DNA of 64,000 nucleotides from NCBI GenBank assembly GCA_021733925.1, contig JAIPJY010000005.1, forward strand, positions 1 to 64,000. The letters are read 5' to 3'. The first letter of the stretch is position 1. Each line of letters starts with the position of its first letter. The position numbers and the translations under genes are program-made. Source of the stretch: Prosthecobacter sp. (GTDB taxonomy: Bacteria; Verrucomicrobiota; Verrucomicrobiia; Verrucomicrobiales; Verrucomicrobiaceae). The notes below the pieces were generated by a model. That model was not told the DNA's origin and searched no databases. It saw nothing but the letters and a program-made list of their open reading frames with translations. Positions 4,061-41,602 of the stretch are shown in pieces.

Positions 4061-4312
4061 ATGACCTCATTGCTTGAAATCGAATTCCCAGTCACCTTGA
4101 CGTTGCACGCAAAGAGCCGTGCAGACGTGGAGCAGCGCAGCCGCTTCCTGCTGGCGGTGAAGTACTTCGAACTCGGAGAAGTCAGTTCAGGACAGGCGGC
4201 AAAAATGTGCGGCATGGGCCGGGTGGCCTTTCTCGCCGAATGCAGCCGCAGTGGCGTTCCAGTAAGCGAACTGGACGGTGATGATCTCGAACGGGAATTC
4301 GCCGATGGCTGA
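4061..4312 (+). CDS. UPF0175-family antitoxin
   Basis: An 83-residue protein matching UPF0175: a beta-rich start followed by a helix-turn-helix-like part with the family pattern KYFELGEVSSGQAAKMCG. UPF0175 proteins are antitoxins usually paired with DUF3368 PIN-domain toxins, and such a gene follows here with an 8-base overlap. It probably neutralises the toxin and represses the pair. Confidence 0.82.
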   Translation: MTSLLEIEFPVTLTLHAKSRADVEQRSRFLLAVKYFELGEVSSGQAAKMCGMGRVAFLAECSRSGVPVSELDGDDLEREFADG

Positions 4313-4769: not shown

Positions 4770-4823
4770 GTGAATGCCTGCGCCAGGCAGGGGAGTAACG
4801 TCGGTTCAGCCTGCTGCTCGTCC

Positions 4824-7142: not shown

Positions 7143-7247
7143 GACGAGTGGGTTGAGTGACGCTAAAGCAGCGGCTAGGAGCATCTAGGTCAAGCATAAA
7201 CGCAGCTCGCCTGCCCGAGTTTGGCGGAAAGACGCGTACCCAACCAA

Positions 7248-13404: not shown

Positions 13405-14163
13405 ATGTCACTCATCGCCCTTCAAAACGCCCGTCCTGAAACTGCCATCGTGCTGGGTTCGGGGCTTGGGGCTGTGGCGGAGGCGTTTGGGATTGAAAGT
13501 GAAGTCGCGTATGGCGAGGTGCCGGGGCTGAGTGCTTCCACCGTGCCGGGACATGCAGGGCGCTTTGTGCTGGCGCAGCATCACGGCAAGCCCATCCTTC
13601 TGGCGCAAGGGCGGCGGCATTTGTATGAGGGGCTCACGGCGCATGAGGTCACGGCGAGCATCCGCTTCATGCATGAGATCGGCGTGAAGCGCGTCGTGCT
13701 CACGAATGCAGCGGGGGCGATCCATGAGAATTTTCATGTCGGTGGGCTGATGCTCATCACCGATCACATCAATCTCCAGGGCACCACGCCGCTGCTCGGC
13801 GGTCCGAACTTCCATGACATGAGCGAGGTTTACTCGCGGGCGTGGTGTGAAAAATTCCATGCGGCGAGTTTGGAGATCGGTTTGAAGCTGCACGCGGGTG
13901 TGTATGCCGCGCTGCTCGGCCCGCAGTATGAGACGCCGGCGGAAATCCGCATGCTGCGCACGCTGGGTGCGGATGCTGTGGGCATGTCCACGGTGCCCGA
14001 GGCCATTCAGGCGCGGGCGCTTGGGATGGAAGTAGCGGGTATCTCCATGCTCACCAACTGGGCCGCTGGTTTGCGGGCGCAGACGCTGCATCACGCGGAG
14101 GTGGTGGAGGTGGGGAAGACGGCGGGGATGTATCTGGCAAGGCTGTTGAAGGCGGCGGTGTGA
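13405..14163 (+). CDS. Purine nucleoside phosphorylase
   Basis: A 252-residue trimeric-type (PNP I/II) purine nucleoside phosphorylase that cleaves inosine or guanosine with phosphate in purine salvage. Seen are the phosphate-binding VLGSGLG at the start, TNAAGAIHENF, GPQYETPAEIRML and GADAVGMSTVPE, all family signatures. It lies 11 bases after panE. Somewhat short compared with the usual 270-280 residues, but without an evident missing motif. Confidence 0.92.
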   Translation: MSLIALQNARPETAIVLGSGLGAVAEAFGIESEVAYGEVPGLSASTVPGHAGRFVLAQHHGKPILLAQGRRHLYEGLTAHEVTASIRFMHEIGVKRVVLTNAAGAIHENFHVGGLMLITDHINLQGTTPLLGGPNFHDMSEVYSRAWCEKFHAASLEIGLKLHAGVYAALLGPQYETPAEIRMLRTLGADAVGMSTVPEAIQARALGMEVAGISMLTNWAAGLRAQTLHHAEVVEVGKTAGMYLARLLKAAV

Positions 14164-14193
14164 ACGAGAGTGGTTAGCCCGAAATGATGGCTT

Positions 14194-14469
14194 TCACTCG
14201 GAGACTCCTCGCGACGACCTCCACTGTAAAATCGCATAGATGACGAGGCTCCACTGCGCTGCGCACGCAAAGAACAGCGCAGGCAGCTCAGGTATCGTCA
14301 GTTTATGCAAAACCTCAGCCGCCCACGTGGCTGGATAATGAAGCCAAGAAAAGATCATTCCCAATGTGGAGCCGGGCGCACAGGGCCCCCAGCCGTTCAC
14401 GGAGATCAGAGCGAATAAAATACCCGTGATCGAGATCCCTGAGATGATCGACTTACCCCAGAGATTCAT
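14194..14469 (-). CDS. Small membrane protein, unknown
   Basis: A 91-residue protein with two or three hydrophobic segments (about 8-26, 36-50 and 62-82). No motif is recognised. It sits alone between the phosphorylase and bioB, ending 24 bases before the phosphorylase-side flank. Confidence 0.5.
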   Translation of the reverse strand: MNLWGKSIISGISITGILFALISVNGWGPCAPGSTLGMIFSWLHYPATWAAEVLHKLTIPELPALFFACAAQWSLVIYAILQWRSSRGVSE

Positions 14470-26231: not shown

Positions 26232-28199
26232 TTATTTGCAGCCGCTGGTCTTCAGCACGGCCAGCGCTACTTCATCGGGTGTGACCAAGGTCATGCAATT
26301 GTAGTGGCCAAAGGGGCACTCACGCTCAAAGCAGGGACTGCAGGGCACCTTGTGCTGGATGACAGTGTGGCGTTCGCCGAGCGGGCCGGTTTCAATGGGG
26401 CAGGTGGAGCCGAAGATGCTCACCGTGGGAATGCCAAGCGCCGCTGCCAGATGCATGGTGCCGGTGTCATTGGTGAGCAGGAGCTGGCATTCGCGGAGTT
26501 TGGCGATGAGCTCAGAGAGCCGGGTTTTGCCCACGAGGTTTTCATGCGGGGCTTGCAGCATGGCGGAGAGCTTTTCGCCCATCTCCTTCTCCCCGGGGGC
26601 GCCAAACAACTGCCAGCGGAACTGCGCGTGCTGGGCTGAGATTTGGTTCACCACGGCGGCGAAGCGCTCCAGCGGCCAGCGCTTGGCGGGGCCGTATTCG
26701 GCACCGGCACAAACGCCGACACGGATGGTGCCATCCGTCGAAACCGGCGCGGTGCCGGAATCCCACAGGCCGGGCTGCTCGATGTCGGCACCGATGCCTG
26801 CGGCGATGCGCAGGTAGCGGTGCGCGTGGTGCTCCTTGTCGATTTTGACCTGCGGCTCCTTGATGATCTGATTGAGCAGTTTGGCACGGAAGGACCCTCT
26901 GACACCGACACGGCGGGGGATTTCGGCGAGCCAGATTTCCAGCGTGCTGCGGGTGGAATTGGTGCAGAGCACGGCGGCGTCAAACTCCACCCCCGTGGCC
27001 TTGATGCGCCTGGCCACGGCAAAGAGGCCTTCTTTGGCGGGTTTGGCGATGTAGCGCGAGACTTCGGGCATGGAGAGCCATAGCTCCTCAAGCTTGTCCG
27101 GACCGAGGATGGTGATCTTCATGTCCGGCCGGCCGCGTTTGATGGCCCGGACCATGGGGAAGGCCATGCAGGCATCACCGAGCCAGTTGGGGCTGCGGAT
27201 GAGCAGCTCAAACGGCTGCAGGCGGCTCATGTCGTAGTCCGGGGGAAAGGCGATGCCACGGCGATAGGTTGAGAGCAGGAATTTCGGCTTCGGCAGCTTC
27301 CAGCGGTTGTGCACCCAGAACCAGTTCGTGGGCTGTGCGCGGATCAATTGTTCGGCCGCCTGATTGATGGCCACGGTCAGGCCTTCGGCGGTGGGCTCCG
27401 CTTCTGCGGACTTCACTTCGGGCGCGCAGACGAGCCGCCAGCGGGCCGGGCCGTCGTCATAGACCATCATGGGCAGCACGGCAGCACGAGTGCGGATTGC
27501 CATGAGCGCCGCAATGGTGGTGGTGGAGGCCAGCCGGTCGAAGAACGGGCACCACAGACCATGGTCGCCGGCATGCTGATCCACCAGCACACCCACCTGA
27601 CCGGCATCCCGGATGAACTTCATGGGTGCGTTGAATCCTTCCTGACGGTTAAACAATGTATAACCGAGCTTTTCGCGCCGACTGCGAACATGGTCATTGA
27701 GCCAGGGATTGCGCAGGGGCTGGAAAATCGCTCCGGCTTTGTGCCCGCGCACATACAAGGACGGCACCTGGGTCAGGATCTCCCAGCAGCTGATGTGCAG
27801 CACCAGATTCACGATGGGGCGTTTGCCGTCGTCGTAGGCCGCCTGTGCATTCTCGATGCCCTCGGCCCGGACATGGCGACAGATTGCCGCCTCGGTCATG
27901 AGCGGCACTTTGAATCCGCACAGGATGTTCGCGTACATGCTCTTGGTGTGTTCACGTGCCAGGCTGCGAAGCTCGGCGTCACTTTTCTCATGGCCAAAGG
28001 CGATGCGCAGGTTGTGCAGCACCAGCTTGCGGTATTTGCGGCTGAGAGCATAGGCCACGGTGCCAAAGGCACGACCTGCATACCAGATCACGATGAGCGG
28101 GAGGAGCCACAGCACGCCTTCGATGCACCGGAACAGTGCGTAAATCAGCCACTGCACGGTGCGCTTATATAAACTGGCAGAATCTTTGGCGCGGCCCAT
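26232..28199 (-). CDS. Lipid A acyltransferase fused to LPS heptosyltransferase
   Basis: A 655-residue two-domain protein. Residues about 1-370 form an LpxL/HtrB-type acyltransferase: an N-terminal helix, the HX4E active-site motif in LHISCWEIL and the DQHAGDHG block. Residues about 385-655 form an ADP-heptose:LPS heptosyltransferase (WaaF, GT9): RSPNWLGDACMAFP at the start and LLTNDTGTMHLAAALGIPTVSIFG near the end. The first domain adds late acyl chains to lipid A, the second heptose to the core. The fusion would join both steps at the inner face of the membrane. The start at 28199 precedes the membrane helix. Confidence 0.85.
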   Translation of the reverse strand: MGRAKDSASLYKRTVQWLIYALFRCIEGVLWLLPLIVIWYAGRAFGTVAYALSRKYRKLVLHNLRIAFGHEKSDAELRSLAREHTKSMYANILCGFKVPLMTEAAICRHVRAEGIENAQAAYDDGKRPIVNLVLHISCWEILTQVPSLYVRGHKAGAIFQPLRNPWLNDHVRSRREKLGYTLFNRQEGFNAPMKFIRDAGQVGVLVDQHAGDHGLWCPFFDRLASTTTIAALMAIRTRAAVLPMMVYDDGPARWRLVCAPEVKSAEAEPTAEGLTVAINQAAEQLIRAQPTNWFWVHNRWKLPKPKFLLSTYRRGIAFPPDYDMSRLQPFELLIRSPNWLGDACMAFPMVRAIKRGRPDMKITILGPDKLEELWLSMPEVSRYIAKPAKEGLFAVARRIKATGVEFDAAVLCTNSTRSTLEIWLAEIPRRVGVRGSFRAKLLNQIIKEPQVKIDKEHHAHRYLRIAAGIGADIEQPGLWDSGTAPVSTDGTIRVGVCAGAEYGPAKRWPLERFAAVVNQISAQHAQFRWQLFGAPGEKEMGEKLSAMLQAPHENLVGKTRLSELIAKLRECQLLLTNDTGTMHLAAALGIPTVSIFGSTCPIETGPLGERHTVIQHKVPCSPCFERECPFGHYNCMTLVTPDEVALAVLKTSGCK

Positions 28200-28278
28200 G
28201 GGGCTCTTTATGCCGCAACGCCTCCGAGCACGCAACCGTTCATGCGAGATCAGCCGGAACTGCTTCGTTTGGCCTTGG

Positions 28279-29610
28279 ATGCACCGCCTTTTTCTCCTGC
28301 TCATGACTTGCTGCCCGCTGCTGCATGCCGCCGCCGCGAAGCCGAACATCGTTTTCATCATGGCGGACGATCTCGGCTGGGCGGACGTGGCTTTTCACGC
28401 CGGCAATGCGCCCACGCCGAACCTGGACAAGCTGGCCCGGGAAGGCCTGGAGCTGACACATCACTACGTGGCGCCGGTGTGCAGCCCCACGCGTACAGGC
28501 TTGATGACTGGCCGCTACTGGAGCCGCTTTGGCGTGACCACCCCGCAGAATGAACGGGCGCTGCCGTGGGACACGGTGACGCTGCCGCGCGCGCTGAAGT
28601 CGGTGGGCTATGAGACCTGCATCACCGGCAAGTGGCATCTCGGTTCGAAGTCCGAGTGGGGGCCGAATCACTTTGGCTTTGACCACAGCTACGGCTCGCT
28701 GGCGGGCGGGGTCGGCCCCTGGGACCACCATTACAAGAAGGGCGAATACACCGAGACGTGGCACCGCGATGAAAAACTCATCAAGGAGCCCGGGCATGTG
28801 ACGGACTTGATCACGAAGGAGGCTTGTGAGTGGCTCGCGGCACGGAAGGACGCCCCGTTTTTCCTCTATGTGCCGTTTACCGCCGTGCATCTGCCGGTGA
28901 AGGAGCCGGAGGAGTGGTTGTCCAAGGTGCCTGCGGGCATCACGGGCGCTGTGGCACGCCATTACGCGGCGTGCATCATGCACCAGGATGCGGCGGTGGG
29001 CCAGATCGTGGCCGCGTTGGAGAAGCATGGGCAGCGCAGCAATACGCTGCTGGTTTTCACCAGCGACAACGGCGGCAGCACCGCTGAAAACAACGGTCAG
29101 GCCTACCCGCCCGATGATTACCCGACGGGCCCTCTGCCCGGGAACAACCTGCCGCTGCGTGGCGAGAAAGGCAGCGTCTATGAAGGCGGCACCCGCGTGC
29201 CCTGCATTGTCAGCTGGCCCGGCAGGCTGCAACCCGGCAAAAGCGACGCCCCGGTGCAGATCATCGACTGGATGCCCACCTTCTGCGCACTGGCCGAATT
29301 CAAACCGGCCCAGGACCTGAAATGGGACGGCGTGAATCTCTGGCCGCAACTGGCCGAGGGAGCGCCGCCGCCGCCACGCACGCTGTACACCACAGGGCCC
29401 GGCTTCAAGTCACGCGCGCTGCGCTGTGACCCCTGGAAGCTGGTGGTGCATGGCTCCGCCGAGAAGGCGAAGTTTGAGCTCTATGACATCATCGCTGATC
29501 CCCATGAAACCCAGGATCTGGCCGCGCAAAAGCCTGATCAACTGGCTGCGATGAAGGAGCGGCTGGCCGATGCGGCCAAAGCGGATCGCGATGCCGAGGC
29601 GAAGGATTGA
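28279..29610 (+). CDS. Secreted formylglycine-dependent sulfatase
   Basis: A 443-residue arylsulfatase-family enzyme with a signal peptide (about 1-20). The CxPxR motif CSPTRTG at 68-74 supplies Cys68 for conversion to formylglycine; calcium ligands include Asp30 and Asp31 (MADDLGW) and the later FTSDNGG. GKWHLG is also present. Secreted sulfatases are numerous in PVC bacteria and desulfate polysaccharides. The ATG at 28279 gives the signal peptide. Confidence 0.92.
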   Translation: MHRLFLLLMTCCPLLHAAAAKPNIVFIMADDLGWADVAFHAGNAPTPNLDKLAREGLELTHHYVAPVCSPTRTGLMTGRYWSRFGVTTPQNERALPWDTVTLPRALKSVGYETCITGKWHLGSKSEWGPNHFGFDHSYGSLAGGVGPWDHHYKKGEYTETWHRDEKLIKEPGHVTDLITKEACEWLAARKDAPFFLYVPFTAVHLPVKEPEEWLSKVPAGITGAVARHYAACIMHQDAAVGQIVAALEKHGQRSNTLLVFTSDNGGSTAENNGQAYPPDDYPTGPLPGNNLPLRGEKGSVYEGGTRVPCIVSWPGRLQPGKSDAPVQIIDWMPTFCALAEFKPAQDLKWDGVNLWPQLAEGAPPPPRTLYTTGPGFKSRALRCDPWKLVVHGSAEKAKFELYDIIADPHETQDLAAQKPDQLAAMKERLADAAKADRDAEAKD

Positions 29611-31053: not shown

Positions 31054-31095
31054 TCTCCGCCGACAGGCCCGGGCCTCAGCACGCGTTCTTTGCGC

Positions 31096-33996
31096 ATGTC
31101 ACGCTGCCTTCTCTTCCTGCTGCTGCTTTCAGCCAGTGCCTTCGCGCAGCTTGCCAACCGCCCGCCGGTACCGCAGTGGCTTTCGGCTCCTGAAGCTGGC
31201 GCGACGTTCACCCAGGCGGTGAAACACGAGGGCAAGCTGCTCAAAGCGGTGCTGCTCACCGCCAGCGATGCCACGGTGGAGATCGTGCTCGATGGCAAGA
31301 GCATCGCCACCGTCAAAGCCGCTGACGCTGCGACGGGCACGGACCTCACGCAGCAGCTTGGTGATGGCAAAGCTCATCAACTTGGGCTGCGTGTGCCGGG
31401 CAAAGCGAAGACCGCCGCGCGGCTGGAACTCAATGGCGACCTCGCCGCCGTGCGCTGGATTGTCACGGATGCCACGTGGCAGAACGCCGTGGTGAGCGGC
31501 CCCACCGATGCCGATCCGGCCACGAACCCCTTCGATTTGAAGAAGACCTTTGATGCCTACAACTCCTGGCAGCTTGCCAAACCCGGCGCGCAGAATCAGG
31601 CCACCGATCCCGCCACGCTAACAGTGCCACCGGGTTTCAAAGCGGAACTCATCCGCTCCGCGCAGCCCGGTGAAGACTCGTGGGTGTCGATGGCCTTCGA
31701 TCCCGAAGGGCGCATCACGCTGGGCAAAGAGAAGAAGGGCCTCATTCGCCTCACGCTCAGTGGCAGCGGCGATCAGAAGATGGAAGTCATCGACGACGAA
31801 CTGCTGGAGTGCCGGGGGCTGCTCTATGCGCACGGCTCGCTCTTCGCGAATGCCAACAACTCGAAAACGCTCTTCCGCCTGACCGATGCCGATGGCGACG
31901 GTGTTTTTGAAAAACGCCAGGCGCTTGTGCAAACCGGAGGCGGCGTGGGCCATGGCCGCAATCACATCAAACTCGGCCCGGATGGCGACATCTACGTGGC
32001 GCATGGCAACAACGTGCTGCTGCCCAAGAACCTCGATCCTGATTCGCCGCTGAAGAACTACGCGAATGACCAGCTCATCCCGAACCCATGGGATGGCAGT
32101 ATGTTCGATGGCAATGTGGAGCTTCCCGCCGGCCACATCCTGCGGGTGAAGCCGGATGGGAGCAAGGTCACGCTGCTCGCGGGTGGGCTGCGCAACCCGC
32201 TCGATATTGCCTTCAATCATGAAGGCGATCTCTTCACCTTTGATGCCGATATGGAGCGTGACGTCGGCACGCCGTGGTACATGCCCACGCGGGTGCTGCA
32301 GATTCTTCCCGGCGGTGATTACGGCTGGCGGCGTGGTACGGGGCGTTTCCCCGCATGGTATGCCGACACGCTGCCCAGCGTGATCGACATTGGGCTGTCG
32401 TCACCCACGGGGATCTTTTTTGGGTATGGGGCCAGGTTTCCAGCCAGGTATCAAAACGCGCTCTTTCTTCTCGATTGGAGTTACGGACGGATCATTGCGG
32501 TGCATTTCACCTGGAATGGTGCTTTGACGCCACCGAGGCAGGAAGACTTCATCAGCGGCAGGCCCTTGAATGTGACGGATGGGTGTGTCGGTCCAGACGG
32601 AGCCATGTGGTTCATCACCGGTGGCCGAGGAACCCAGAGCGGACTGTATCGTGTGGCATACACAGGTGACGACATTCAGAAAGCCGCACCCGTGAAGGGG
32701 AATCGACACTCGGAAGAAATCACCCAGTCCACGAAGAGGTTGAATGGATCCATGCGTGCGTCGAGTGAGCCGGAGCCAGACCTGGATTTCATTTTGCGGA
32801 TGCTCAGGGGTTGGTCAACTCCCGCCGAAACTCGGTTTGCAGCCCGCCTCGCACTCGAACGCATTCCCGCAGACCAATGGAGACAACGGGCGTTCAGTGA
32901 AAGTGAGAAAGACGCGTCGATGGCCGCCCTGCTGGCCCTGGCCCGGGTGGGAACAGCGGACGATTTGTCACCCCTCCTGCAACGGGTCGTGACGTTATTC
33001 CGAGACGAAGCTTTTTCGGTGCATGCGCTTCGCGTCATCAGCGTGGCCTGCTCGCGGCTCGGAAGACCGAGTGCTGAAGATCAACGCAGGCTGTTGAACC
33101 ACGCGGAACTCTCTTATCCGATCTTTGCACAAGGAGAGCTTGCTGCGGACCCGACACCGCAAAATCGCGAACTCTGCCGCCTTCTGGTCTATTTGAAATC
33201 CCCCACGGTCATCGCGAAGACGATGCCTCTCCTCCAAGCGGCCACGACTTCGGAGGACCTCTTGTTTTACCCGTTCATGCTGCGCTACCTCAAGGAGGGC
33301 TGGACGCTGGAGCAGCGGCGGGTGGTGTTTGAGGCGCTGAACAAGGCGGAGAAGATGAACGGGGCATCCACCTTCTTCAAAGCGATCAGCGACACGCGCA
33401 GCGAGCTGGCGGCGGCGCTGAAACCGGAGGAGGCGGCTCAACTTGCGGCGGTGATCTCACCGGCGAAGCCTGCGGCGCTCTCCCTGCATGCGCTGCCGGG
33501 GCATTCGTTCAAGAACTGGACGCTGGAAGATCTGGTCCCGCTGCTGGCGAAGATGGATGCGAAGACGCGCAGCCGCGACAGCGCAAAGGACGCTCTCATT
33601 CGTGCGCAGTGCGTGTTCTGCCACAAGGTGAGCAACGACCCCACGCTGCCAGCGGGTGTGTTTGGGCCGGACCTCGTGCAGGTGTCCGCGCGCTTCAACC
33701 GCCGTGACCTGCTGGATCACATCCTGAACCCTTCCAAGTTCATTGACGAAAAATTCCGCTACGTGACGGTGAAGACGAGCGATGGCAAAACGATCACCGG
33801 CAGCCTGGAGAGCGAGGACGATGAACGCGTGGTACTGAAGCCGAATCCGCTGGCACCTGAGAAAAGCGAAATCGCGAAGGCGATGATCCAGGAGCGGAGC
33901 GTGTCCGAGATTTCGCCGATGCCGCCCGGATTGCTCAATTCACTGAAGGCGGATCAGATTCTGGACCTGCTGGCGTGGTTTGAGACTATGCAGTGA
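31096..33996 (+). CDS. PVC-type haem-binding dehydrogenase
   Basis: A 966-residue exported protein (signal peptide about 1-17). After a beta-rich N-terminal domain comes a six-bladed propeller of the PVC membrane-bound dehydrogenase kind (about 175-530; blocks GRITLGKEKKGLIRL and GGLRNPLDIAFN), then a helical HEAT-like segment (about 560-800) and a C-terminal cytochrome c domain with CVFCH at 839-843, followed by the typical NPSKFIDEKFRYV and LLAWFETMQ end. It probably oxidises a sugar or alcohol in the envelope. Codon use seems to shift inside about 32400-33250. Confidence 0.85.
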   Translation: MSRCLLFLLLLSASAFAQLANRPPVPQWLSAPEAGATFTQAVKHEGKLLKAVLLTASDATVEIVLDGKSIATVKAADAATGTDLTQQLGDGKAHQLGLRVPGKAKTAARLELNGDLAAVRWIVTDATWQNAVVSGPTDADPATNPFDLKKTFDAYNSWQLAKPGAQNQATDPATLTVPPGFKAELIRSAQPGEDSWVSMAFDPEGRITLGKEKKGLIRLTLSGSGDQKMEVIDDELLECRGLLYAHGSLFANANNSKTLFRLTDADGDGVFEKRQALVQTGGGVGHGRNHIKLGPDGDIYVAHGNNVLLPKNLDPDSPLKNYANDQLIPNPWDGSMFDGNVELPAGHILRVKPDGSKVTLLAGGLRNPLDIAFNHEGDLFTFDADMERDVGTPWYMPTRVLQILPGGDYGWRRGTGRFPAWYADTLPSVIDIGLSSPTGIFFGYGARFPARYQNALFLLDWSYGRIIAVHFTWNGALTPPRQEDFISGRPLNVTDGCVGPDGAMWFITGGRGTQSGLYRVAYTGDDIQKAAPVKGNRHSEEITQSTKRLNGSMRASSEPEPDLDFILRMLRGWSTPAETRFAARLALERIPADQWRQRAFSESEKDASMAALLALARVGTADDLSPLLQRVVTLFRDEAFSVHALRVISVACSRLGRPSAEDQRRLLNHAELSYPIFAQGELAADPTPQNRELCRLLVYLKSPTVIAKTMPLLQAATTSEDLLFYPFMLRYLKEGWTLEQRRVVFEALNKAEKMNGASTFFKAISDTRSELAAALKPEEAAQLAAVISPAKPAALSLHALPGHSFKNWTLEDLVPLLAKMDAKTRSRDSAKDALIRAQCVFCHKVSNDPTLPAGVFGPDLVQVSARFNRRDLLDHILNPSKFIDEKFRYVTVKTSDGKTITGSLESEDDERVVLKPNPLAPEKSEIAKAMIQERSVSEISPMPPGLLNSLKADQILDLLAWFETMQ

Positions 33997-34247: not shown

Positions 34248-34670
34248 ATGAAGAACCATCTTCGAAAAAGCTTTGTTATTTTTGGGACAATTGCTCTCGT
34301 TTTGATTGGGACAACAGCTTACTTTGAAAGTTCGCACAGAGGCAACATAGCGCCTAAAAGCATACAACCATGGTGGAAAGACTATTCTCTACCGCTTCCA
34401 AAGTCAGGTGCCGTCAAGGTTCCGAACGAGGTTTTGATCGAAGCAGGTATCTTGAATGATTTAACATGTGTTTTTGAGGGGAAAAGCTATTCAAAGAATG
34501 ACTTTTTCACCTACCTTCGTGAGAGAAAGAAGCACTTGGCCCAAGAAGGCAAAACTCTCTTCGTGATCGGTCACGCCGGCCCCGGATTGGACATGATGTC
34601 AGCCTCAACAGCCTTCAATCCCATCGTAGGATCGAAAAATTTTATGTTCAAAAGCAAAGCGGAAGATTGA
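34248..34670 (+). CDS. Small membrane-anchored protein, unknown
   Basis: A 140-residue protein with one N-terminal helix (about 9-25) and a soluble part containing the pattern LFVIGHAGPGLDMMSASTAFN. Base composition is clearly more AT-rich than the neighbours, suggesting recent transfer. No family recognised. Confidence 0.5.
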   Translation: MKNHLRKSFVIFGTIALVLIGTTAYFESSHRGNIAPKSIQPWWKDYSLPLPKSGAVKVPNEVLIEAGILNDLTCVFEGKSYSKNDFFTYLRERKKHLAQEGKTLFVIGHAGPGLDMMSASTAFNPIVGSKNFMFKSKAED

Positions 34671-35138
34671 CAAGTATCGATGTAATTTTGAACGAAAGCG
34701 ACTGCGTAACCCTGACCTTGGTCTGCATGAAAACCTGCCGGGAGGACCCTCCCTCTTGCTTATCGGTGAAATCCGCAGTTGAACATGCGCATGTCTCCTG
34801 ACGTACGCAGACCCTCCACGCTTCGCTTCGCGCAGCGCGTGATCGCGCTGCGGGAATGCTGGTTTCCTTTGCCAGCGAAGGGGCGGTGCTGAAGCCGAAT
34901 CCGCTCGCTCCGGAGAAAAGCGAAATCGCCAAGGCGATGATCCAGGAGCGCAGCGTGTCCGAGGTTTCGCCGATGCCCGCCGGATTGCTCAATTCTCTGA
35001 AGGCGGAGCAGATTCTGGATTTGCTGGCATGGTTTGAGACTATGAAGTGAAATGTTTAGTGAGCTTGCAAGGGTTACGCATTGACACTGCGATGAAGTTC
35101 GAGTTTGACTGGGCAAAATTTATTTAAACGCGAGATTT
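34671..35138. other. Gene-fragment region
   Basis: Apart from the chimeric remnant, no intact gene. At 35092-35124 a short frame reads MKFEFDWAKFI then stops; this looks like the first residues of a BrnT-type toxin, so a truncated toxin gene may lie here. A TTGACA at 35081-35086 has no good -10 partner. Confidence 0.4.
34812..35053 (+). pseudogene. Chimeric remnant of two neighbouring gene families
   Basis: About 34854-34888 matches the GMLVSFASEG-coding part of the small CxxC proteins at 41177 and 48142. From 34888 to the stop at 35048-35050 the DNA matches the last 160 bases of the haem-binding dehydrogenase, 33837-33996, at roughly nine bases in ten. The two parts are joined in frame, giving a 64-codon frame from ATG 34856. 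The upstream 40 bases (TTCGCGCAGCGCGTGATCGC) may be more of the small-protein gene. Unlikely to be functional. Confidence 0.7.
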
Positions 35139-35537
35139 ATGAGCGCCCAATGCTGTCAACATCCTGAAACCCCGGCCGTCGGACATTGCACCGGCTGTGC
35201 GGAAGCCTTCTGTGGAAACTGCCTGCTGGAACTGGGCGGCAGCCTTTACTGCGGCTCATGCAAGGTGCTGGCCCTGGGCGGACGGACCCCGATGCTGGAG
35301 AAGATGATGAGCCCCTGTGAGGAGGCCGGCAGTGCGATGTCCAGCGCGGTCATCGGCTTTTTCATCTTTGGTTTCATCCTGCAGCCGATGGCCATCATCA
35401 AAGCCTTTGGTGCGCGCAAACAAATCGCGGCCAATCCGCTGCTGACAGGCTGGGGCAAGGCGAACGCGGCGCTGACGCTGGCCTTGATCGGCCTGACCCT
35501 GACCATCCTGAACTTCGTCGGCAAAGTCTCGCAGTGA
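35139..35537 (+). CDS. B-box-like zinc-finger membrane protein, first of pair
   Basis: A 132-residue protein. The N-terminal 45 residues hold a B-box-like zinc site: C-C-x-H (CCQH), then CTGC, CGNC and CGSC. Two hydrophobic helices follow (about 65-83, 107-127) with a short loop, resembling small DUF4190-type membrane domains. First gene of the ubiquitin-like operon, 35 bases ahead of the next. B-box and RING-type fingers often bind ubiquitin-pathway partners; that role here is inferred from context. Confidence 0.7.
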   Translation: MSAQCCQHPETPAVGHCTGCAEAFCGNCLLELGGSLYCGSCKVLALGGRTPMLEKMMSPCEEAGSAMSSAVIGFFIFGFILQPMAIIKAFGARKQIAANPLLTGWGKANAALTLALIGLTLTILNFVGKVSQ

Positions 35538-35572
35538 GGAAGCAGTCTTTTTAACCCGAGTCCATACGCCCC

Positions 35573-36085
35573 ATGTCTCTGCCACCCCCCCGCCTGCCAC
35601 CGGTGTTTCGCCCCACCTTCAACGCGATACGGGAGGGCACGAACTGCAGCATCCATCCCACGGCCCAGGCGACGCTGAAGTGCATGTGCTGCAGCAACTT
35701 CATGTGCCCGACCTGTGACTTTGCGCTCAAAGGCGGCATCCATGTCTGCCCGAACTGCGCCATGTCCTCCGCAGTGCAGGGTCTCGGCCCCCGCCGTAAG
35801 CGCAATGTAGTCTGGGGCTATGTACTGGCGAGCATCGCCACCATCTGCCTGGCGGCCTTGATGAGCGGGCTGATGGCCGAGTACTTCATCGGAATGAATG
35901 AAACGGTGGCCGGGCTGGTGTTCAGCCTGTTCACCTTTGTGCCTGCCGCGATCGGTTTTGGGGCGTCGAGCAGCGCCTGTGAGCGGCACCTGCCCAACCC
36001 CATGTCCATCAAAGGGGCGATCATTTGGAACGGCCTGCTGCTCGCGGCCTTCATGGCGCTGACCATCATCGGCAATCTCTCGTAA
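35573..36085 (+). CDS. B-box-like zinc-finger membrane protein, second of pair
   Basis: A 170-residue protein with the same layout as its neighbour: a zinc site made of C25-x2-H28, C37-x2-C40, C45-x2-C48 and C59-x2-C62, then three hydrophobic helices (about 80-100, 108-130, 147-168). The two proteins share only the finger pattern, so they are distant paralogues. It ends 27 bases before the ubiquitin-like gene. Confidence 0.7.
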   Translation: MSLPPPRLPPVFRPTFNAIREGTNCSIHPTAQATLKCMCCSNFMCPTCDFALKGGIHVCPNCAMSSAVQGLGPRRKRNVVWGYVLASIATICLAALMSGLMAEYFIGMNETVAGLVFSLFTFVPAAIGFGASSSACERHLPNPMSIKGAIIWNGLLLAAFMALTIIGNLS

Positions 36086-36112
36086 ATCCTTCCCACTTTA
36101 AGCCACTGAGTC

Positions 36113-36385
36113 ATGCCCGACATACAGGTCCGTGTTCTTGATGTTTCTGGAAGCCGCAGCAATGACGTGCAGGCGCCGGATGATGTACCCGTAAACCGCA
36201 TTCTGGCAGTGCTGGTGGAGCGTCTCAACCTGCCGCTCAACAGCCCCGATGGGCAGCTGATGAGCTACAAGCTGCACCACCGGCGCAGCGGCACGCAGCT
36301 GCTGGATCATGTCACGCTGGCACAGGCGGGAGTCATGGGCGGGGACGAACTGCGGCTGCAACCCGAGATCACCGCCGGCTGCTGA
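36113..36385 (+). CDS. YukD/EsaB-like ubiquitin-fold protein
   Basis: A 90-residue single-domain protein with the beta-grasp pattern: IQVRVLDVSG, a helix VNRILAVLVERLNLP, YKLHHRRSG, and LAQAGVMGGDELRLQPE. The last pattern (LA..GV..GDEL.L) is typical of YukD-type ubiquitin-like proteins. The chain ends ITAGC, so a single Gly sits one residue before the end; there is no Gly-Gly. It is two bases upstream of the E1 gene, and E1, E2 and JAB genes follow, so it is the likely modifier. Confidence 0.83.
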   Translation: MPDIQVRVLDVSGSRSNDVQAPDDVPVNRILAVLVERLNLPLNSPDGQLMSYKLHHRRSGTQLLDHVTLAQAGVMGGDELRLQPEITAGC

Positions 36386-36387
36386 GC

Positions 36388-37575
36388 ATGAGCGATCCTC
36401 TCAACGTAGTTTCGCTGCGGGAGGGACGTTTTGCCCGATTTGAAGCGGTGTCCTGGTGGAGGCAGGAGCGCCTGCGGAACGCGCGTGTGCTGGTGATTGG
36501 CGCCGGGGCGCTGGGCAATGAGGTGCTGAAGAATCTGGCGCTGCTGGGCGTGGGTCACGTGGCCGTGGCGGACCTGGACCACGTGGAGCTGAGCAATCTA
36601 AGCCGCTCGGTGCTTTACCGTGAGACGGATGAAGGACGGCCCAAGGCCGAATGCGCCGCCAAGGCAATGAACGCGATTCACCCAGGAACGCAGGTCACGC
36701 CGCTGATCTGCAACGTGCTGGCGGATCTCGGACTGGGCTGGTTTCGCTGGGCAGATGTCGTGGTCGGTGCGCTGGACAACCGCGAGGCGCGGGTGTTCGT
36801 CAACAGCGCCTGCGCACGCACCGGCCGTGCCTGGGTGGATGGCGGAATCGAGGTGCTGCAGGGCATTGTGCGTGGCTTCTTCCCGCCCCAAACCGCCTGC
36901 TACGAATGTACGATGAGCCAGGTGGACTGGGATCTGATTCAAAAGCGGCGCTCATGCACCATGCTGGCCAAGCGCGCACTCGCGGAGCGTGGCACGCCCA
37001 CCACGCCCACGACCGCCTCGGTCATCGGTGGCATTCAGGCGCAGGAGGTCATCAAACTGCTGCATGGCATGGAGGCGCTGACCGGACGCGGCTTCTTCTT
37101 TGATGGTGCCCAGCACCAGTCCTACACGATGACCTACCCGGTGAATCCGGACTGCCCGTGGCATGAACCCGCCGCCGACATCATCCCTTTGGACACGGCC
37201 GGAGGAAACACGCCGCTGACACAGATCGCGGCGGAAGCCACGCAGCGCCTGGGTGGACTGGACGCCCTGGATCTGAGCCGTGAGCTGGTGGAGGCCATGG
37301 AATGCCCGGCCTGCGGAACTCAAACCGCTGTGTGGCGTGCCGTCGAGCATGTGAGCGAAGATCAGCTGCTGTGCCCCGGCTGTGGCGGCGCGTGTGCGCC
37401 GCGCCTGGTGCACAGCCTGCCAGCCGGAAGCCCGATGCTGGAGCGCACCGCACGTGAACTGGGCCTGCCCGCCTGGGATATTCTGTGGGCACGCCATGGC
37501 GAGCAGGCGCTGGGCTTTGAACTGGCCGCCGATTCTCCTTTTGCCAAAACCTCCCCTGCCAACCCAGCCCTGTGA
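36388..37575 (+). CDS. E1-like (ThiF-fold) ubiquitin-activating enzyme
   Basis: A 395-residue protein that would adenylate the C-terminus of the ubiquitin-like protein. The ATP-binding glycine loop is GAGALGNE (38-45), followed by Asp62/Asp64 and NLSR (70-73), the arginine of E1 enzymes. Cys190 in RRSCTML, followed by TPTTASVIGGIQAQEVIKLL, sits where E1 catalytic cysteines lie. Structural zinc ligands are likely C171/C174, C306/C309 and C329/C332. The C-terminal 90 residues are an extra zinc-ribbon-containing domain. It starts two bases after the ubiquitin-like gene and ends four bases before the JAB gene. Confidence 0.9.
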   Translation: MSDPLNVVSLREGRFARFEAVSWWRQERLRNARVLVIGAGALGNEVLKNLALLGVGHVAVADLDHVELSNLSRSVLYRETDEGRPKAECAAKAMNAIHPGTQVTPLICNVLADLGLGWFRWADVVVGALDNREARVFVNSACARTGRAWVDGGIEVLQGIVRGFFPPQTACYECTMSQVDWDLIQKRRSCTMLAKRALAERGTPTTPTTASVIGGIQAQEVIKLLHGMEALTGRGFFFDGAQHQSYTMTYPVNPDCPWHEPAADIIPLDTAGGNTPLTQIAAEATQRLGGLDALDLSRELVEAMECPACGTQTAVWRAVEHVSEDQLLCPGCGGACAPRLVHSLPAGSPMLERTARELGLPAWDILWARHGEQALGFELAADSPFAKTSPANPAL

Positions 37576-37579
37576 GACC

Positions 37580-38683
37580 ATGAAGAAATCTTCTTCTGCC
37601 AGCAACAAAGCCGCCGCCGCCGATGTGAATGTGACGCCTGCTGCAACGGTGAACAAGCCGGTGCGCAAATCCTTCCCGGGGCCTCGTGGTGCTCATGCGC
37701 CACTGCGGGTAGGCGTGGACCGTGAGGCGCAGGCGGAGATCGTCGCGCATGCGAAGGAGTCTCTGCGTGCAGAAGTCTGCGGGGTGATGGTGGGTGAGGT
37801 GGGGCAGGATGATGAAGGCCTCTTTGTGCATGTGCAGGCGGTCATTCGCGGCACGGCGGCCAGCGGTGGCAGCACGCATGTGACCTTCACGCAGGAAACG
37901 TGGACGCTCATCCACACAGCGCTGGAGCGCGACCACCCACGCAAGCAGATGGTCGGCTGGTATCACACGCATCCGGGTTTTGGTGTGGAGTTTTCGGAAA
38001 TGGATCTCTTCATCCAGCGCAATTTCTTCGCCGGACCTTCGCAGATCGCGCTGGTGACGGATCCCATCACCGGGGCGGTCGCCATCGCGGCGAACCACGA
38101 GTCCGGGGGCGTCACCTATCTGCCACGCTACTGGGTGGATGGTCGGGAGCAGACGGCCAGCGTCCCTGCCACGGCCTCCTCAGGCGGCGGGGGGGAACCG
38201 GGGAGCAGCGGCAGCACCGACGTGCGGGCGCTGGAAGACCGGCTCAATCAGATCACCGCAGCGGTGGAAGACCTGCGGACTTCCTTGTACCATTTTTTGC
38301 TCACGGTGGGAGCCGTTGTCTGTCTGGGCGTCGTCGCCATCGTGGGCTGGTACGTACGTGACCAGTTCCGCGCGCGTGTCACGCCGCCGGAAGTCAGCAG
38401 CTATGTGCCGGTGCCGGTGAAGATCGGTGACAAGACCGTCATGCTGGGCGTCGGCGTGGTGAAGTGGGACGTGCCGGATGAGCTCAATGCGCTCGTCGTC
38501 GAAATGGCCAGGCTCCAGATGGAGGAGGAAGCCAAACGCGAGAAGGAAGCGGAAGAAAAAGCCGCCAAAGAGGCCCCCAAAGAATCTTCCAAAGAGCCTG
38601 CCAAGCAACCTTCCAAAGAAGCTCCGAAAGACACTTCCAAGGAAGCCCCGAAAGAAGCCCTCAAGCCCGCCGCAGTACCATGA
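37580..38683 (+). CDS. Membrane-anchored JAB/JAMM isopeptidase
   Basis: A 367-residue protein with a complete JAMM zinc-protease site: Glu65, then HTHPGFGVEFSEMD supplying His129, His131, Ser139 and Asp142 (HxHx7Sx2D). JAMM proteases remove or trim ubiquitin-like proteins. A linker (about 195-235, Gly/Ser-rich then helical) leads to one membrane helix (239-259), a beta-like stretch, and a Lys/Glu-rich tail of KEAPK/SKEP repeats (from about 315). The start at 37580 (MKKSSSAS) is four bases past the E1 stop. Its end overlaps the next start by four bases. Confidence 0.9.
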   Translation: MKKSSSASNKAAAADVNVTPAATVNKPVRKSFPGPRGAHAPLRVGVDREAQAEIVAHAKESLRAEVCGVMVGEVGQDDEGLFVHVQAVIRGTAASGGSTHVTFTQETWTLIHTALERDHPRKQMVGWYHTHPGFGVEFSEMDLFIQRNFFAGPSQIALVTDPITGAVAIAANHESGGVTYLPRYWVDGREQTASVPATASSGGGGEPGSSGSTDVRALEDRLNQITAAVEDLRTSLYHFLLTVGAVVCLGVVAIVGWYVRDQFRARVTPPEVSSYVPVPVKIGDKTVMLGVGVVKWDVPDELNALVVEMARLQMEEEAKREKEAEEKAAKEAPKESSKEPAKQPSKEAPKDTSKEAPKEALKPAAVP

Positions 38684-40047
38684 GCAATCCCATCATCCGC
38701 ATCACCCACGAAGAGGCCGCCAGCAGCCATGTGGATGACCTGATCAAACGCCAGATGAGCCTGCGCGGTGATCCGGGCGTGACGCGCCATACGGCGCGCA
38801 GCTGGTATTACCAAAGCTGGTTTCTCTTCATGATCGTCGGGTTCATCGGAGCCATGTGCGCGTGGGGGCTGACGGAGCCGTGGTATAACGATTATGAATA
38901 CACTCAGGGCGCGGTCACGGACCTGGACTACTCCTTCACCCAGGACACCACCAACAAAGACGAGGTGCTGCCTTTCGTGATGGGTCACCTCAAGGTCAAT
39001 GGCGAGGACATCGTGCTGCTGCACACCACACGCGAACTGCTGCCAGACGGAACCACGCGCAAGCTGGGGCACGATCTGCTGAAAAATGGCGAAACGGCAG
39101 GGTTCTATGTGGAGTTCAAAGAGTCCCCCACCGAAGAAATTTCACTGTGCAGCTTCGTCGTGCGCTCACCACCACCCTTAGCGTCTGGAGACAAGCCCAT
39201 GACCCTGCGTGCCATGGCAAAACGCAGCAACACGATCGGCCTGCTGCTGTTCTCCATCGTGGCAGGATTCATCGGCTTTTTCATTGGTGCGGCGGACGGC
39301 ATCGTCTGCCGTCTGCCACGGCGTGCCATTCTCTCCGGCTTCGTCGGTTTGTTTGTCGGTCTAGTCGGGGGTCTGGTGTCAGGCGTGATCGCCAACATCG
39401 TGTACATGCCCCTCACGCAATGGGCTCTGAGCCAGGGTGGCGAGGCCGGCGGAATGAGCGCGACGGGCTTTGGCATCCAGATGCTGGGGAGAACACTGGC
39501 CTGGGGGCTGGCGGGCATGACCATGGGGCTGGGGCAGGGCATTGCCCTGCGTTCTCAGCGTCTCATCGCCTACGGCTTCATCGGCGGCATCGTGGGTGGT
39601 CTGCTGGGCGGACTGTTCTTCGATCCGGTGGACATCCTGCTTCTCGGCACGGACAAGCCGAGCGCACACATCAGCCGGCTGGTCGGGCTGGGCATCATCG
39701 GCCTCAGTGTGGGTGCCATGATCGGCGTGGTGGAGCTGCTGGCACGTGACGCCTGGCTGCAGATGACGCAGGGGCCGCTGAAGGGGAAGGAATTCCTGAT
39801 CTTCAAGGACGTGATGCATGCCGGCTCCTCGCCCCGCTCAGATCTCTACCTCTTCAATGACCCGCGCATTGCCGAACATCACATGGTGATCCGCGCGGTG
39901 GGTGAGGACTGTGAAGTCGAGACCAAGCAACCCGAGTCACATCCGGTTCTGATCAATGGCCGGGCGGTCAAACGCGCGCGGTTGAAGCATGGTGACACCG
40001 TGGCGCTCGGCGGCACCCAGTTTGTGTTCCAGAAGCGCAAATCCTGA
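38680..40047 (+). CDS. Multi-pass membrane protein with C-terminal FHA domain
   Basis: A 455-residue protein. One membrane helix at about 46-63 is followed by an outside domain of about 120 residues, then five or six Gly-rich helices between about 187 and 345. Residues about 360-455 form an FHA domain: GKEFLIF, SDLYLFNDPRIAEHHMVIR, PVLINGRAVKRARLKHGDTV, with the family S-x-x-H-like RIAEHH. FHA domains bind phosphothreonine, so the protein may link the conjugation pathway to a kinase; no kinase gene is in the window. ATGA overlap with the JAB gene. Confidence 0.83.
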   Translation: MSNPIIRITHEEAASSHVDDLIKRQMSLRGDPGVTRHTARSWYYQSWFLFMIVGFIGAMCAWGLTEPWYNDYEYTQGAVTDLDYSFTQDTTNKDEVLPFVMGHLKVNGEDIVLLHTTRELLPDGTTRKLGHDLLKNGETAGFYVEFKESPTEEISLCSFVVRSPPPLASGDKPMTLRAMAKRSNTIGLLLFSIVAGFIGFFIGAADGIVCRLPRRAILSGFVGLFVGLVGGLVSGVIANIVYMPLTQWALSQGGEAGGMSATGFGIQMLGRTLAWGLAGMTMGLGQGIALRSQRLIAYGFIGGIVGGLLGGLFFDPVDILLLGTDKPSAHISRLVGLGIIGLSVGAMIGVVELLARDAWLQMTQGPLKGKEFLIFKDVMHAGSSPRSDLYLFNDPRIAEHHMVIRAVGEDCEVETKQPESHPVLINGRAVKRARLKHGDTVALGGTQFVFQKRKS

Positions 40048-40062
40048 GCCCTGAACAAACCC

Positions 40063-40650
40063 ATGAGCGAATCGACCCTTTCCGAGGCCGGCACCTGCAC
40101 GATCTGCCTGACCGGCATCGACCAGGACGGAGAGCCCGTGGCCTGCCCTGCCTGCCAGGCACCCTATCACCTCGAGTGCTGGACGGAGAACCACGGCTGC
40201 GGGGTGTACGGCTGCCAGCATGCGCCGCAGGTGGAGCTGCGCACGCAGATGGAAATCCCGGTTTCTTTCTGGGGCCAGGAGAACAAGCCCTGCCCAAGCT
40301 GCCGCCAGAGCATCGCCGCAGCCGCCCTGCGCTGCCGTCATTGCGGCGTCATCTTTACCAGTGCCCAACCGCAGGACGCCGAGTCTTTTCGTGCGAAGGA
40401 AAACCTGACAGCGCGGCTGCCTGCCACGCAACGCAGCATCAAGATCCTGTTTGTGCTCTGCATTCTGCCCTTCACGGCGCCTCTGGGCGCGCTGGTCGCA
40501 GCCATCTGGTATGCGCTGCGGCGCAAGGAAGTCCGTGCGCTGCCTGCCTTCTACGGTGCCCTGTGCAAAATTGGCATCGGCATCGGCCTGCTGGAAACAG
40601 CCATCATCATCCTCATGAGCCTGCTCTACAACACCTCCCACGCAGCCTGA
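40063..40650 (+). CDS. Prokaryotic RING-finger membrane protein, E3 candidate
   Basis: A 195-residue protein. A C4HC3 RING-type site is seen: C12-x2-C15, C28-x2-C31, H36-x2-C39, C46-x4-C51, with the pattern CPACQAPYHLECW and HGCGVYGC of the Prok-RING families. A second zinc ribbon has C77/C80 and C91/C94. Two or three membrane helices follow (about 126-150, 165-190). RING fingers of eukaryotes recruit E2 enzymes; the E2 gene is next, 26 bases downstream. E3 activity is inferred, not shown. Confidence 0.83.
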   Translation: MSESTLSEAGTCTICLTGIDQDGEPVACPACQAPYHLECWTENHGCGVYGCQHAPQVELRTQMEIPVSFWGQENKPCPSCRQSIAAAALRCRHCGVIFTSAQPQDAESFRAKENLTARLPATQRSIKILFVLCILPFTAPLGALVAAIWYALRRKEVRALPAFYGALCKIGIGIGLLETAIIILMSLLYNTSHAA

Positions 40651-40676
40651 AACACTGAACTGAACAGCCCCACGCC

Positions 40677-41135
40677 ATGAACCCCCGACTCCGACGTCTT
40701 CAGGCCGATTACCAAAGTGTCTCAACCGCTCTCGCTGCGCACCCCACCATCCGCCTCGCAGGCGTGGAGGGCACTCCCCCCGAACGCTACTTCATCGACT
40801 TTTATGTGCGGGGGCTGCTGCCTGAGGGTGATGACTCCTTCAAGGTCGGCGAGTCTCACCGTGCGGAGGTCTATCTGCCGCTGGATTATCCGCGCCGCCC
40901 GCCTGTATGCCGCATGCTGACCCCCGTCTTCCACCCGAACATTGATCCGCAGAAAATCTGCATCGGGGATCACTGGAGCGCCGGTCAAACGCTGCCGCTG
41001 CTCATCTCCCGCATCGCAGAGATGATCACCTATCAAAGCTACAATGTGAAAAGCCCGCTGAATGCGAAGGCGGCCGCCTGGGCGGAGCAAAACCTGAGCG
41101 CCCTGCCTCTGGACAAGCGTGACCTGACTTGCTGA
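40677..41135 (+). CDS. E2-like ubiquitin-conjugating enzyme
   Basis: A 152-residue E2 of strikingly eukaryotic form: VYLPLDYPRRPPVCRMLTPV is the E2 beta-sheet, HPN sits at 86-88, and Cys95 in KICIG, seven residues on, is the likely catalytic cysteine, then DHWSAGQTLPLLISRI and NVKSPLNAKAA match the E2 helix region. It has no membrane segment. The last gene of the operon, ending 41 bases before the leaderless small gene. It would carry the ubiquitin-like protein from E1 to a target, perhaps via the RING protein. Confidence 0.9.
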   Translation: MNPRLRRLQADYQSVSTALAAHPTIRLAGVEGTPPERYFIDFYVRGLLPEGDDSFKVGESHRAEVYLPLDYPRRPPVCRMLTPVFHPNIDPQKICIGDHWSAGQTLPLLISRIAEMITYQSYNVKSPLNAKAAAWAEQNLSALPLDKRDLTC

Positions 41136-41176: not shown

Positions 41177-41602
41177 ATGTCCTCCCGCCCCAAAGCATCG
41201 CTGCTGCCGCGAATGGCGCGGCTGGTGATCGTGGGGACGATCTGTCTGTCTCTGGGTCTGCACTGGGCGCTGCTGCAGGGAGTCGCGTGGGCTGGCATGC
41301 TGGTCTCCTTTGCCAGCGAAGGCACAGTGATGGAGGCGGTGCAGAAAACCTTCGATGGGCAGCATGGCTGCGCGCTTTGCAAAAAAGTGAAGGAAGGCAG
41401 CAGCTCTGACCGCAAGCAGCCGCAGCAGGTGGGACAGTCCATGCAGAAGATCAACGCCGTACTGGTGGAGATGACGACCCTGACCGCCCCTGCAGGAAAC
41501 ACTTTCTCATTCGTGCCGCTGCACGAAACGTTGGTGCAACGCACCGAACTGCCGGAGACGCCACCGCCACGACGCGGCAGCAGCCTCCGCTCTCTGAGCT
41601 GA
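41177..41602 (+). CDS. Small membrane-anchored CxxC protein, copy 1
   Basis: A 141-residue protein with one helix (about 14-38, ending WAGMLVSFA) and a soluble tail with FDGQHGCALCKKV, a CxxC pair that could bind metal or be redox active. The C-terminus ends in a Pro-rich ETPPPRRG stretch. A paralogue at 48142 shares helix, CxxC block and Pro-rich end. Both stand at the edges of the redox/copper gene cluster, which suggests metal handling; no function is known. Confidence 0.7.
   Translation: MSSRPKASLLPRMARLVIVGTICLSLGLHWALLQGVAWAGMLVSFASEGTVMEAVQKTFDGQHGCALCKKVKEGSSSDRKQPQQVGQSMQKINAVLVEMTTLTAPAGNTFSFVPLHETLVQRTELPETPPPRRGSSLRSLS

Follow-up and report, generated by a model that had tools for sequence, protein, structure and literature searches.

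Among the described systems closest to the one considered here is that of the archaeon Caldiarchaeum subterraneum, in which an operon for ubiquitin, E1, E2 and a small RING protein is neighbored by a gene for an Rpn11-type JAMM peptidase, placed beside the operon on the opposite strand (PMC5654768, in the part accessible). According to the same part of that report, the Rpn11-type JAMM removes a nine-residue tail after the glycine motif of the modifier, and activation requires this trimming (PMC5654768). In bacteria, related operons in Actinobacteria, Planctomycetes and Acidobacteria go back to a survey of 2011 and are termed uncharacterised in the available section of a 2014 review (PMC4197634). 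Here, we report an operon of eight genes (35139-41135, plus strand) in a 64,000-nucleotide stretch of contig JAIPJY010000005.1 from Prosthecobacter sp., hereafter the window, which probably encodes a complete membrane-tethered cycle of ubiquitin-like protein (Ubl) conjugation and deconjugation. It shares the same five catalytic roles in separate genes with the Caldiarchaeum system, but the archaeal ubiquitin ends in GG, and the accessible part of its description, which includes reconstitution in vitro, mentions no membrane anchors, B-box or FHA proteins (PMC5654768); the window operon, in contrast, is known from sequence alone.

The intergenic gaps of the operon are 35, 27, 2, 4, -4, 15 and 26 bases, and the coordinates of the open reading frames (ORFs) confirm the places, strand and spacings that an earlier reading of this DNA (the original prediction) had given. 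B1 (35139-35537, 132 residues) combines a B-box-like zinc finger with a DUF4190-like hairpin of two transmembrane (TM) segments, and B2 (35573-36085, 170 residues) combines a similar finger with about three TM segments. They are followed by the Ubl (36113-36385, 90 residues), a YukD-type ubiquitin-fold modifier precursor ending in LRLQPEITAG and then C, by a ThiF/UBA-type adenylating enzyme, E1 (36388-37575), with a predicted catalytic Cys190, and by a JAMM isopeptidase (37580-38683) with intact E65 and HxHx7SxxD, one TM segment (239-257) and a charged C-terminal tail. The JAMM start is best placed at the ATG at 37580; the mechanical ORF opens at 37382, within E1. The last three genes encode an FHA membrane protein (38680-40047) with five predicted TM segments and a degenerate C-terminal FHA domain, a RING-type protein (40063-40650) with a C4HC3 treble clef, a second zinc ribbon and two TM segments, and an E2 ubiquitin-conjugating enzyme (40677-41135) with HPN at 86-88 and Cys95. 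A simple hydropathy scan found membrane segments in five of the eight products, as originally predicted, i.e., two in B1, three in B2, one in JAMM, five in the FHA protein and two in the RING protein, and none in Ubl, E1 and E2.

Pfam matches above the curated cut-offs (E-values) were YukD (7e-10), ThiF (4e-54), JAB (4e-12), UQ_con (8e-12), FHA (2.5e-6), Yop-YscD_cpl (2.9e-9), Prok-RING_1 (2.3e-9) and the UPF0547 zinc ribbon (1.5e-7); below the cut-off were B-box (0.002 in B1 and 0.025 in B2) and DUF4190 (3e-6 in B1). None of the eight products reached an NCBIfam cut-off among the matches listed. The Prok-E2_B profile (PF14461) matched nothing in the window's own genome, where its control also matched nowhere, so this search carries little weight.

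The end QPEITAG is common to all 17 Ubls compared from the eight-gene and six-gene types of the operon. After the final Gly, eight of them have no tail and nine have 1-9 variable residues, a single Cys in the window; by inspection, no common motif is visible in the nine tailed Ubls. An invariant end with a variable extension is the pattern expected if JAMM trims a precursor, and a tail beyond the C-terminal Gly is one of the likenesses to Caldiarchaeum. The AlphaFold2 model of the Ubl (predicted local distance difference test score, pLDDT, 87.9) was matched by Foldseek to SUMO, ubiquitin, NEDD8 and Caldiarchaeum ubiquitin types at E about 1e-5, within the best 50 of 450 matches (E up to 0.001); these include 6fno and 6fnn, in which the Caldiarchaeum Rpn11-type enzyme is complexed with Caldiarchaeum ubiquitin. 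K53 (window numbering), present in 17 of 17 Ubls and the sole lysine of the window modifier, is a candidate site for chains.

The enzyme motifs seen in the original prediction are kept in every row covering their catalytic residues, and the loss in relatives for which it had proposed to look was not found. E1, in which the motif alignment places the adenylation motifs, has Cys190 in all 17 rows covering that position (alignment of 18), and its C-terminal extension gives a sub-threshold zinc-ribbon match. In the E2 alignment, Cys95 is present in 23 of 23 rows and HPN in 21 of 23, both being invariant in the 15 close relatives, window included. Glu65 and HxHx7SxxD of JAMM are kept in 14 of 14 rows; by sequence, the solved structure nearest to it is that of the Caldiarchaeum Rpn11 homologue (6fjv, E 6e-11), a further likeness to that system.

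The RING protein has its ligands at C12, C15, C28, C31, H36, C39, C46 and C51 in the treble clef and at C77, C80, C91 and C94 in the second ribbon. The C4HC3 ligands are invariant in 13 of 13 full-length rows of the eight-gene type and are also kept in four aligned six-gene rows, i.e., 17 covering rows of 18 (the RING of L044 has no ligand region and hence does not cover it). The AlphaFold2 model (pLDDT 82.6) gave a PHD finger as the top Foldseek match, with the RINGs of RNF38 and RNF126 at ranks 2-3. The RING-type call of the original prediction thus stands as far as the Prok-RING_1 match and the ligands go, but the protein could still be a PHD-like adaptor, and its putative E3 activity is the weakest of the enzymatic claims. 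Prok-RING_1 is over the cut-off in seven genomes of the class, in six of them with an E2 on the same contig. The sole exception, L037, lacks E2: its Prok-RING_1 gene (13972-14430) is alone, the other operon genes being absent from its 15.6 kb.

This protein can carry small membrane domains such as CD225, RDD, TM2, DUF4190 and DUF805. Six-gene loci retain its RING module (in L071 as a weak match of 0.007, under the cut-off), and the remainder of the protein varies: CD225 and GYF_2 in L030, GYF_2 and a sub-threshold DUF805 in L032, DUF4190 in L033, a sub-threshold DUF805 in L068, RDD in L069 and an extra N-terminal FHA domain in L071, with TM2 in L031. Because the RING module is kept while the anchors differ, the comparison suggests that selection keeps the membrane placement of RING rather than a particular anchor. 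The membrane hairpins of B1 and RING match each other with an hhalign probability of 82 over the ribbon and the first TM segment, which is only suggestive of homology.

The eight metal ligands of B1 (C5, H8, C17, C20, C25, C28, C38, C41) and of B2 (C25, H28, C37, C40, C45, C48, C59, C62) are invariant in nine of nine sequences each, window included, and the two zinc fingers match each other as profiles with a probability of 95; the B-box calls of the original prediction have their ligands, but no Pfam match above the cut-off. Several Planctomycetota versions of B2 have a longer N-terminus with further Cys-rich modules. The FHA protein does match FHA above the cut-off, but a YscD-type domain outscores FHA in bits, and at the phosphothreonine site, as placed by the usual FHA motif, the eight-gene type has Arg in 0 of 11 rows, Ser in 0 of 11 and His in 11 of 11. 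Since this Arg and Ser are absent, phospho-signalling through the FHA protein is doubtful, and we read the protein as a possible scaffold, like the YscD-type domain. Some six-gene relatives have further FHA domains on E2 or RING (C-terminal ones on the E2 of L030 and L032), partly with Arg and Ser by eye.

An E2 scan of the GTDB 220 set, with one genome per species, gave 15 loci, 14 of them in metagenome bins, so that the phylum labels of short contigs are uncertain: by title, nine are Planctomycetota or a subgroup of it (including L052, a distant compact form), two Verrucomicrobia, and one each Acidobacteria, Deltaproteobacteria, Fibrobacter and a further bacterium. Eight of the 15 have all eight genes in the order and strand of the window, nine with the window itself; L039, L041, L046 and L048 are broken by a contig end, and their remaining genes agree with the window order. 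L029 and L045 are one contig and were counted once; this Verrucomicrobia-titled locus (genome G018) falls in the window's class. A six-gene type, Ubl-E1-JAMM-FHA-RING-E2, was found in L030, L032, L033, L068, L069, L071 and L072, seven loci in which B1 and B2 were not detected. The order of these six core genes is identical in 17 of 17 loci that have them all, ten of the eight-gene type (including L048, cut before B2) and seven of the six-gene type, and both types occur together in two planctomycete genomes. The operon is also present in a complete planctomycete genome, CP087563.1. In a concatenated five-protein tree of 18 loci, the two types split at a support of 100. Within the eight-gene type, support is too weak to decide on horizontal transfer: the Verrucomicrobia groupings reach 60-70 and most Planctomycetota groupings 14-63, and just two pairs, L047/L049 and L048/L051, attain 100. 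The window is 28-76% identical to its relatives for five aligned proteins (E2, Ubl, RING, B1 and B2). In the closest locus pair, the ratio of nonsynonymous to synonymous substitution rates (dN/dS) is 0.05-0.13 for seven genes, with dS at 1.1-3.2, near saturation, and B2 not computable; this pair is under strong purifying selection. Because of these identities, the conserved order and the low dN/dS, the operon is not a chance arrangement.

A third, compact type (L034, L035, L036, L052 and L073) holds E1, Ubl, E2 and JAMM, and its Ubls end in VAG or QAG, tailed or tailless. The plasmid search gave a single E2 of 28% identity (Crinalium), within a different compact gene set: in L079, a mobilizable cyanobacterial plasmid, the region 4248-7725 encodes ThiF, E2 and Mov34/MPN proteins together with two small ORFs, next to a conjugation gene. 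In the six-gene locus L030, an ORF for a trypsin-like peptidase (6920-8023) lies immediately 5' of the Ubl.

In the cycle that we propose, the membrane-anchored JAMM would trim the Ubl precursor after the invariant Gly, removing one Cys in the window; E1 would adenylate the exposed ITAG end and then hold the Ubl as a thioester on Cys190, from which it would pass to Cys95 of E2. The RING protein, anchored by its hairpin, may deliver the E2-bound Ubl to substrates at the inner membrane. A role as scaffold or substrate adaptors may fall to both B-box membrane proteins and to the multi-TM pseudo-FHA protein, and JAMM may also take the tag off the substrates. The targets are likely membrane or envelope proteins, because five of the eight parts are membrane-borne and RING keeps its zinc module while its anchors are swapped, and the likely role is a reversible regulatory or quality-control mark. 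No gene of the proteasome family was found in six of 11 host genomes, including the window's own, the only one of stated completeness (93%), so proteasomal degradation would not be needed. More tentatively, and with the odds against the picture as a whole, several phyla may have a dedicated inner-membrane Ubl pathway in which RING and B-box modules on interchangeable hairpins (DUF4190, CD225, TM2, RDD) reversibly mark envelope proteins with a single-Gly YukD-type modifier and without a proteasome, by a logic comparable to that of eukaryotic membrane-anchored RING ligases. If so, the YukD modifier family would have been recruited later to type VII secretion, or the reverse. The proposed cycle itself would be a bacterial three-enzyme Ubl cascade in full, integrated in the membrane and with no evident tie to defence, and the operon would offer a tractable model of RING-based tagging outside eukaryotes. 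It predicts concretely that lysines of membrane proteins carry an LQPEITAG remnant, with a calculated tryptic mass gain of 809.43 Da.

Several observations weigh against a complete conjugation cycle. The end motif of the Ubl has one Gly (AG) instead of GG, and its sequence profile has no significant relative among solved structures (best E 0.045). This profile is unmatched in three of the nine genomes with E2, i.e., G005 (contig cut), G116 and G181 (compact type); all six genomes that do match it, of 286 in the class, also have E2, which speaks for the cycle. The treble clef of RING is C4HC3, with Foldseek matches that mix PHD and RING and none at E below 0.1, and the Arg and Ser for FHA signalling are absent, despite a different Arg three residues downstream (SPRSD/E) that is kept in 10 of 11 rows. 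The spread of E2 is patchy. Counting the window's own genome, it is present in nine of the 286 genomes of the class, six with a close form and three with the compact type, and in four of 387 genomes of a phylum-wide draw, but in none of four same-genus relatives; the operon therefore has no core function. The original prediction had also asked whether the genes are scattered in relatives, and its gene order holds in all loci with the six core genes, but two of the 15 loci, L043 and L044, are odd, with a truncated E2 or RING next to unrelated DNA. Their E2 and RING genes (L043, 8995-9423; L044, 1884-2294) start mid-domain, by rearrangement or in a misassembled contig. Established here are the gene set and its order, the conserved catalytic residues, the tail pattern of the precursor, the membrane segments as predicted and the purifying selection, whereas enzymatic activity, substrates and any phenotype are predictions.

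Many relatives carry one or two genes beyond the eight, and the operon is in this sense less complete than originally predicted, although the full set of E1, E2, RING, JAMM and Ubl is there. Five of the eight complete relatives (L038, L040, L047, L049 and L051) have a small ORF of about 100 residues between B2 and Ubl; the two of these ORFs that were checked have no Pfam match. A DUF2752-like membrane protein is encoded 3' of E2 in five loci (L038, L041, L043, L046 and L048) and divergently before B1 in L047 and L049, its identity being confirmed by Pfam in L038 and L047. Neither gene was found when the window neighborhood was clustered with its relatives, and a literature search on DUF2752 and DUF4190 found no paper. 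We scanned 64 flanking ORFs, 51 of 62 from eight-gene loci and 13 chosen from the window; 46 ORFs of six-gene loci and another 11, most of them small, were not included. Two of the 64 match PADLOC at 1e-10, and at 1e-8 any one Pfam family occurs in at most three of them; the neighborhood is thus not the defence neighborhood of known anti-phage Ubl systems. By eye, the genes around the window operon resemble those of ordinary metabolism, and the ones downstream include SCO1- and cytochrome-like genes.

A recent foreign insertion of the operon is not supported: its guanine plus cytosine (GC) content is 0.625 versus 0.604 for the window, and its tetranucleotide distance is within the range of other 6-kb bins. 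Only the 0.7 kb 5' of the operon is rich in adenine and thymine (AT-rich). There, the last 174 bases (33823-33996) of the gene at 31090-33996 are repeated at 90% identity 1.05 kb downstream (34877-35050), just before the operon, and the AT-rich stretch between the copies (GC 0.45) holds an ORF of 140 residues (34248-34670). This duplication looks like an old insertion at the 3' end of the 31090-33996 gene. A 48-base repeat (81%) lies on both sides of the operon (34850-34897 and 41291-41338) and has no further copy in its own genome (E up to 0.001); it is due to chance or is the trace of an insertion. Farther upstream, a single frame (26232-28361) encodes both a lipid A acyltransferase and a family 9 glycosyltransferase domain.

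The operon might instead serve in conflict, with phages or otherwise, as do CBASS (cyclic-oligonucleotide-based anti-phage signalling system), Bil and the ternary systems with a Ubl-bearing FtsH, putting its Ubl on a protein of the invader or of an effector. Bacterial Ubl systems appear mainly phage-defensive (review, PMC12687455), some predicted conflict systems have a Ubl-E2 protein alongside a complete set of JAB, E1 and RING (PMC7159879), the distribution of the operon is patchy, and one relative has a CD225 anchor, a domain that Pfam describes as interferon-induced transmembrane protein. E1 also has sub-threshold matches to the anti-phage model 6A-MBL cap2_3 (46 bits versus a cut-off of 320) and, in PADLOC, which supplies no score cut-offs, to E1-E2 models (best 1e-17) and weakly to BilD (8.5e-6), but these fall on the shared ThiF part. 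Apart from general E1 and JAB matches, that BilD match and two matches above E 0.2, PADLOC gave nothing for the eight products, and Ubl, E2, B1, B2 and the FHA protein had no match up to E 1. The flank scan speaks against this reading as well, as do E2s that are 56-68% identical to the window's across the titled phyla and the lack of any relative among 50,697 phage records and in IMG/VR; Bub operons are likewise without demonstrated phage protection (PMC13373217). We consider a conflict system unlikely, although it deserves more weight than cofactor synthesis or secretion. A pathway of the ThiS-ThiF or MoaD-MoeB kind, for a sulfur carrier or a cofactor, would account for the ThiF type of E1, but hardly for E2, RING and JAMM with their active residues, the precursor tails, or a Ubl model nearest to SUMO and ubiquitin types among the best 50 of 450; with no cofactor-synthesis or rhodanese family above the Pfam cut-off in the other seven products, it is highly improbable.

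Nor do we give much credit to a type VII secretion role of the YukD-type protein, which seems about as improbable. The YukD gene accompanies type VII genes; in Bacillus, the protein was reported unconjugated (PMC1779556) and is required for the secretion of YukE (PMC3701619), and one WXG100 match lies elsewhere in the window genome; but WXG100 is over the cut-off in only two of 11 host genomes, Pfam matched neither an FtsK-like ATPase nor WXG100 among the eight products, and the Ubls have a conserved Gly end with tails. More plausible, and still the less probable option, is that the RING-like protein acts merely as a membrane scaffold or adaptor and that E2 modifies substrates directly, without an E3, which is compatible with the rest of the proposed cycle. 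The C4HC3 order and the top PHD-finger match fit this, as does the solitary Prok-RING_1 gene of L037, and prokaryotic RINGs are not all ubiquitin-related (PMC4029887). However, the RING gene adjoins E2, its ligands are invariant, RNF38 and RNF126 rank second and third in Foldseek, and the accessible part of a review ascribes the C4HC3 order, with a longer last insertion, to prokaryotic RINGs (PMC11354881). Taken together, the flank scans, the neighbors of the window operon, the survey of proteasome and WXG100 genes and the purifying selection favor a reversible, proteasome-independent membrane mark over defence, cofactor synthesis and secretion.

Among bacterial systems, Bil (BilABCD), Bub and CBASS Cap2/Cap3 are comparable systems of Ubl conjugation with E1, E2 and a dedicated protease, and to our knowledge they have no RING, B-box or FHA membrane proteins. 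Cap2 of CBASS is an E1-E2 fusion, whereas the window and its relatives have E1 and E2 as separate genes and so differ from type II CBASS. For BilABCD, RING, B-box and FHA membrane proteins are not among the parts named in the available section of a review (PMC11354881); Bil and CBASS are tied to defence, whereas Bub is not proven so (PMC13373217). The FtsH ternary conflict systems resemble the operon in their separate JAB, E1 and prokaryotic RING genes, but have a Ubl combined with E2 and EAD1, and vWA, AAA+ and caspase-like effector components of their own (PMC7159879); Pfam matched no vWA, AAA+, EAD1 or caspase-like family in the eight window products. YukD/EsaB of type VII secretion belongs to the same Pfam family as the window Ubl (PF08817), but it is unconjugated in Bacillus as reported (PMC1779556) and its gene setting is unlike the window's. 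Our literature search, with most subscription papers and preprints outside its reach, found no experimental study of the operon among the papers listed. The novelty is smaller than originally predicted, because operons of Ub, E1, E2, RING and JAMM had already been reported computationally, as the available section of the 2014 review tells (PMC4197634). The window RING is a member of Prok-RING_1 (PF14446), and Burroughs, Iyer and Aravind predicted RING/E1/E2/JAB/Ubl operons in 2011; they reportedly also proposed that YukD-like Ubls are conjugated and noted bacterial family members with a TM helix. Several features of that class are found here, i.e., a processable Gly end of the Ubl, the catalytic motifs of E1 and E2, and a JAMM with its active site in the operon. 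The B-box and FHA membrane genes are new only if absent from the 2011 survey, and the operon is best read as a probable variant of the bacterial Ub/E1/E2/RING/JAMM operons already predicted.

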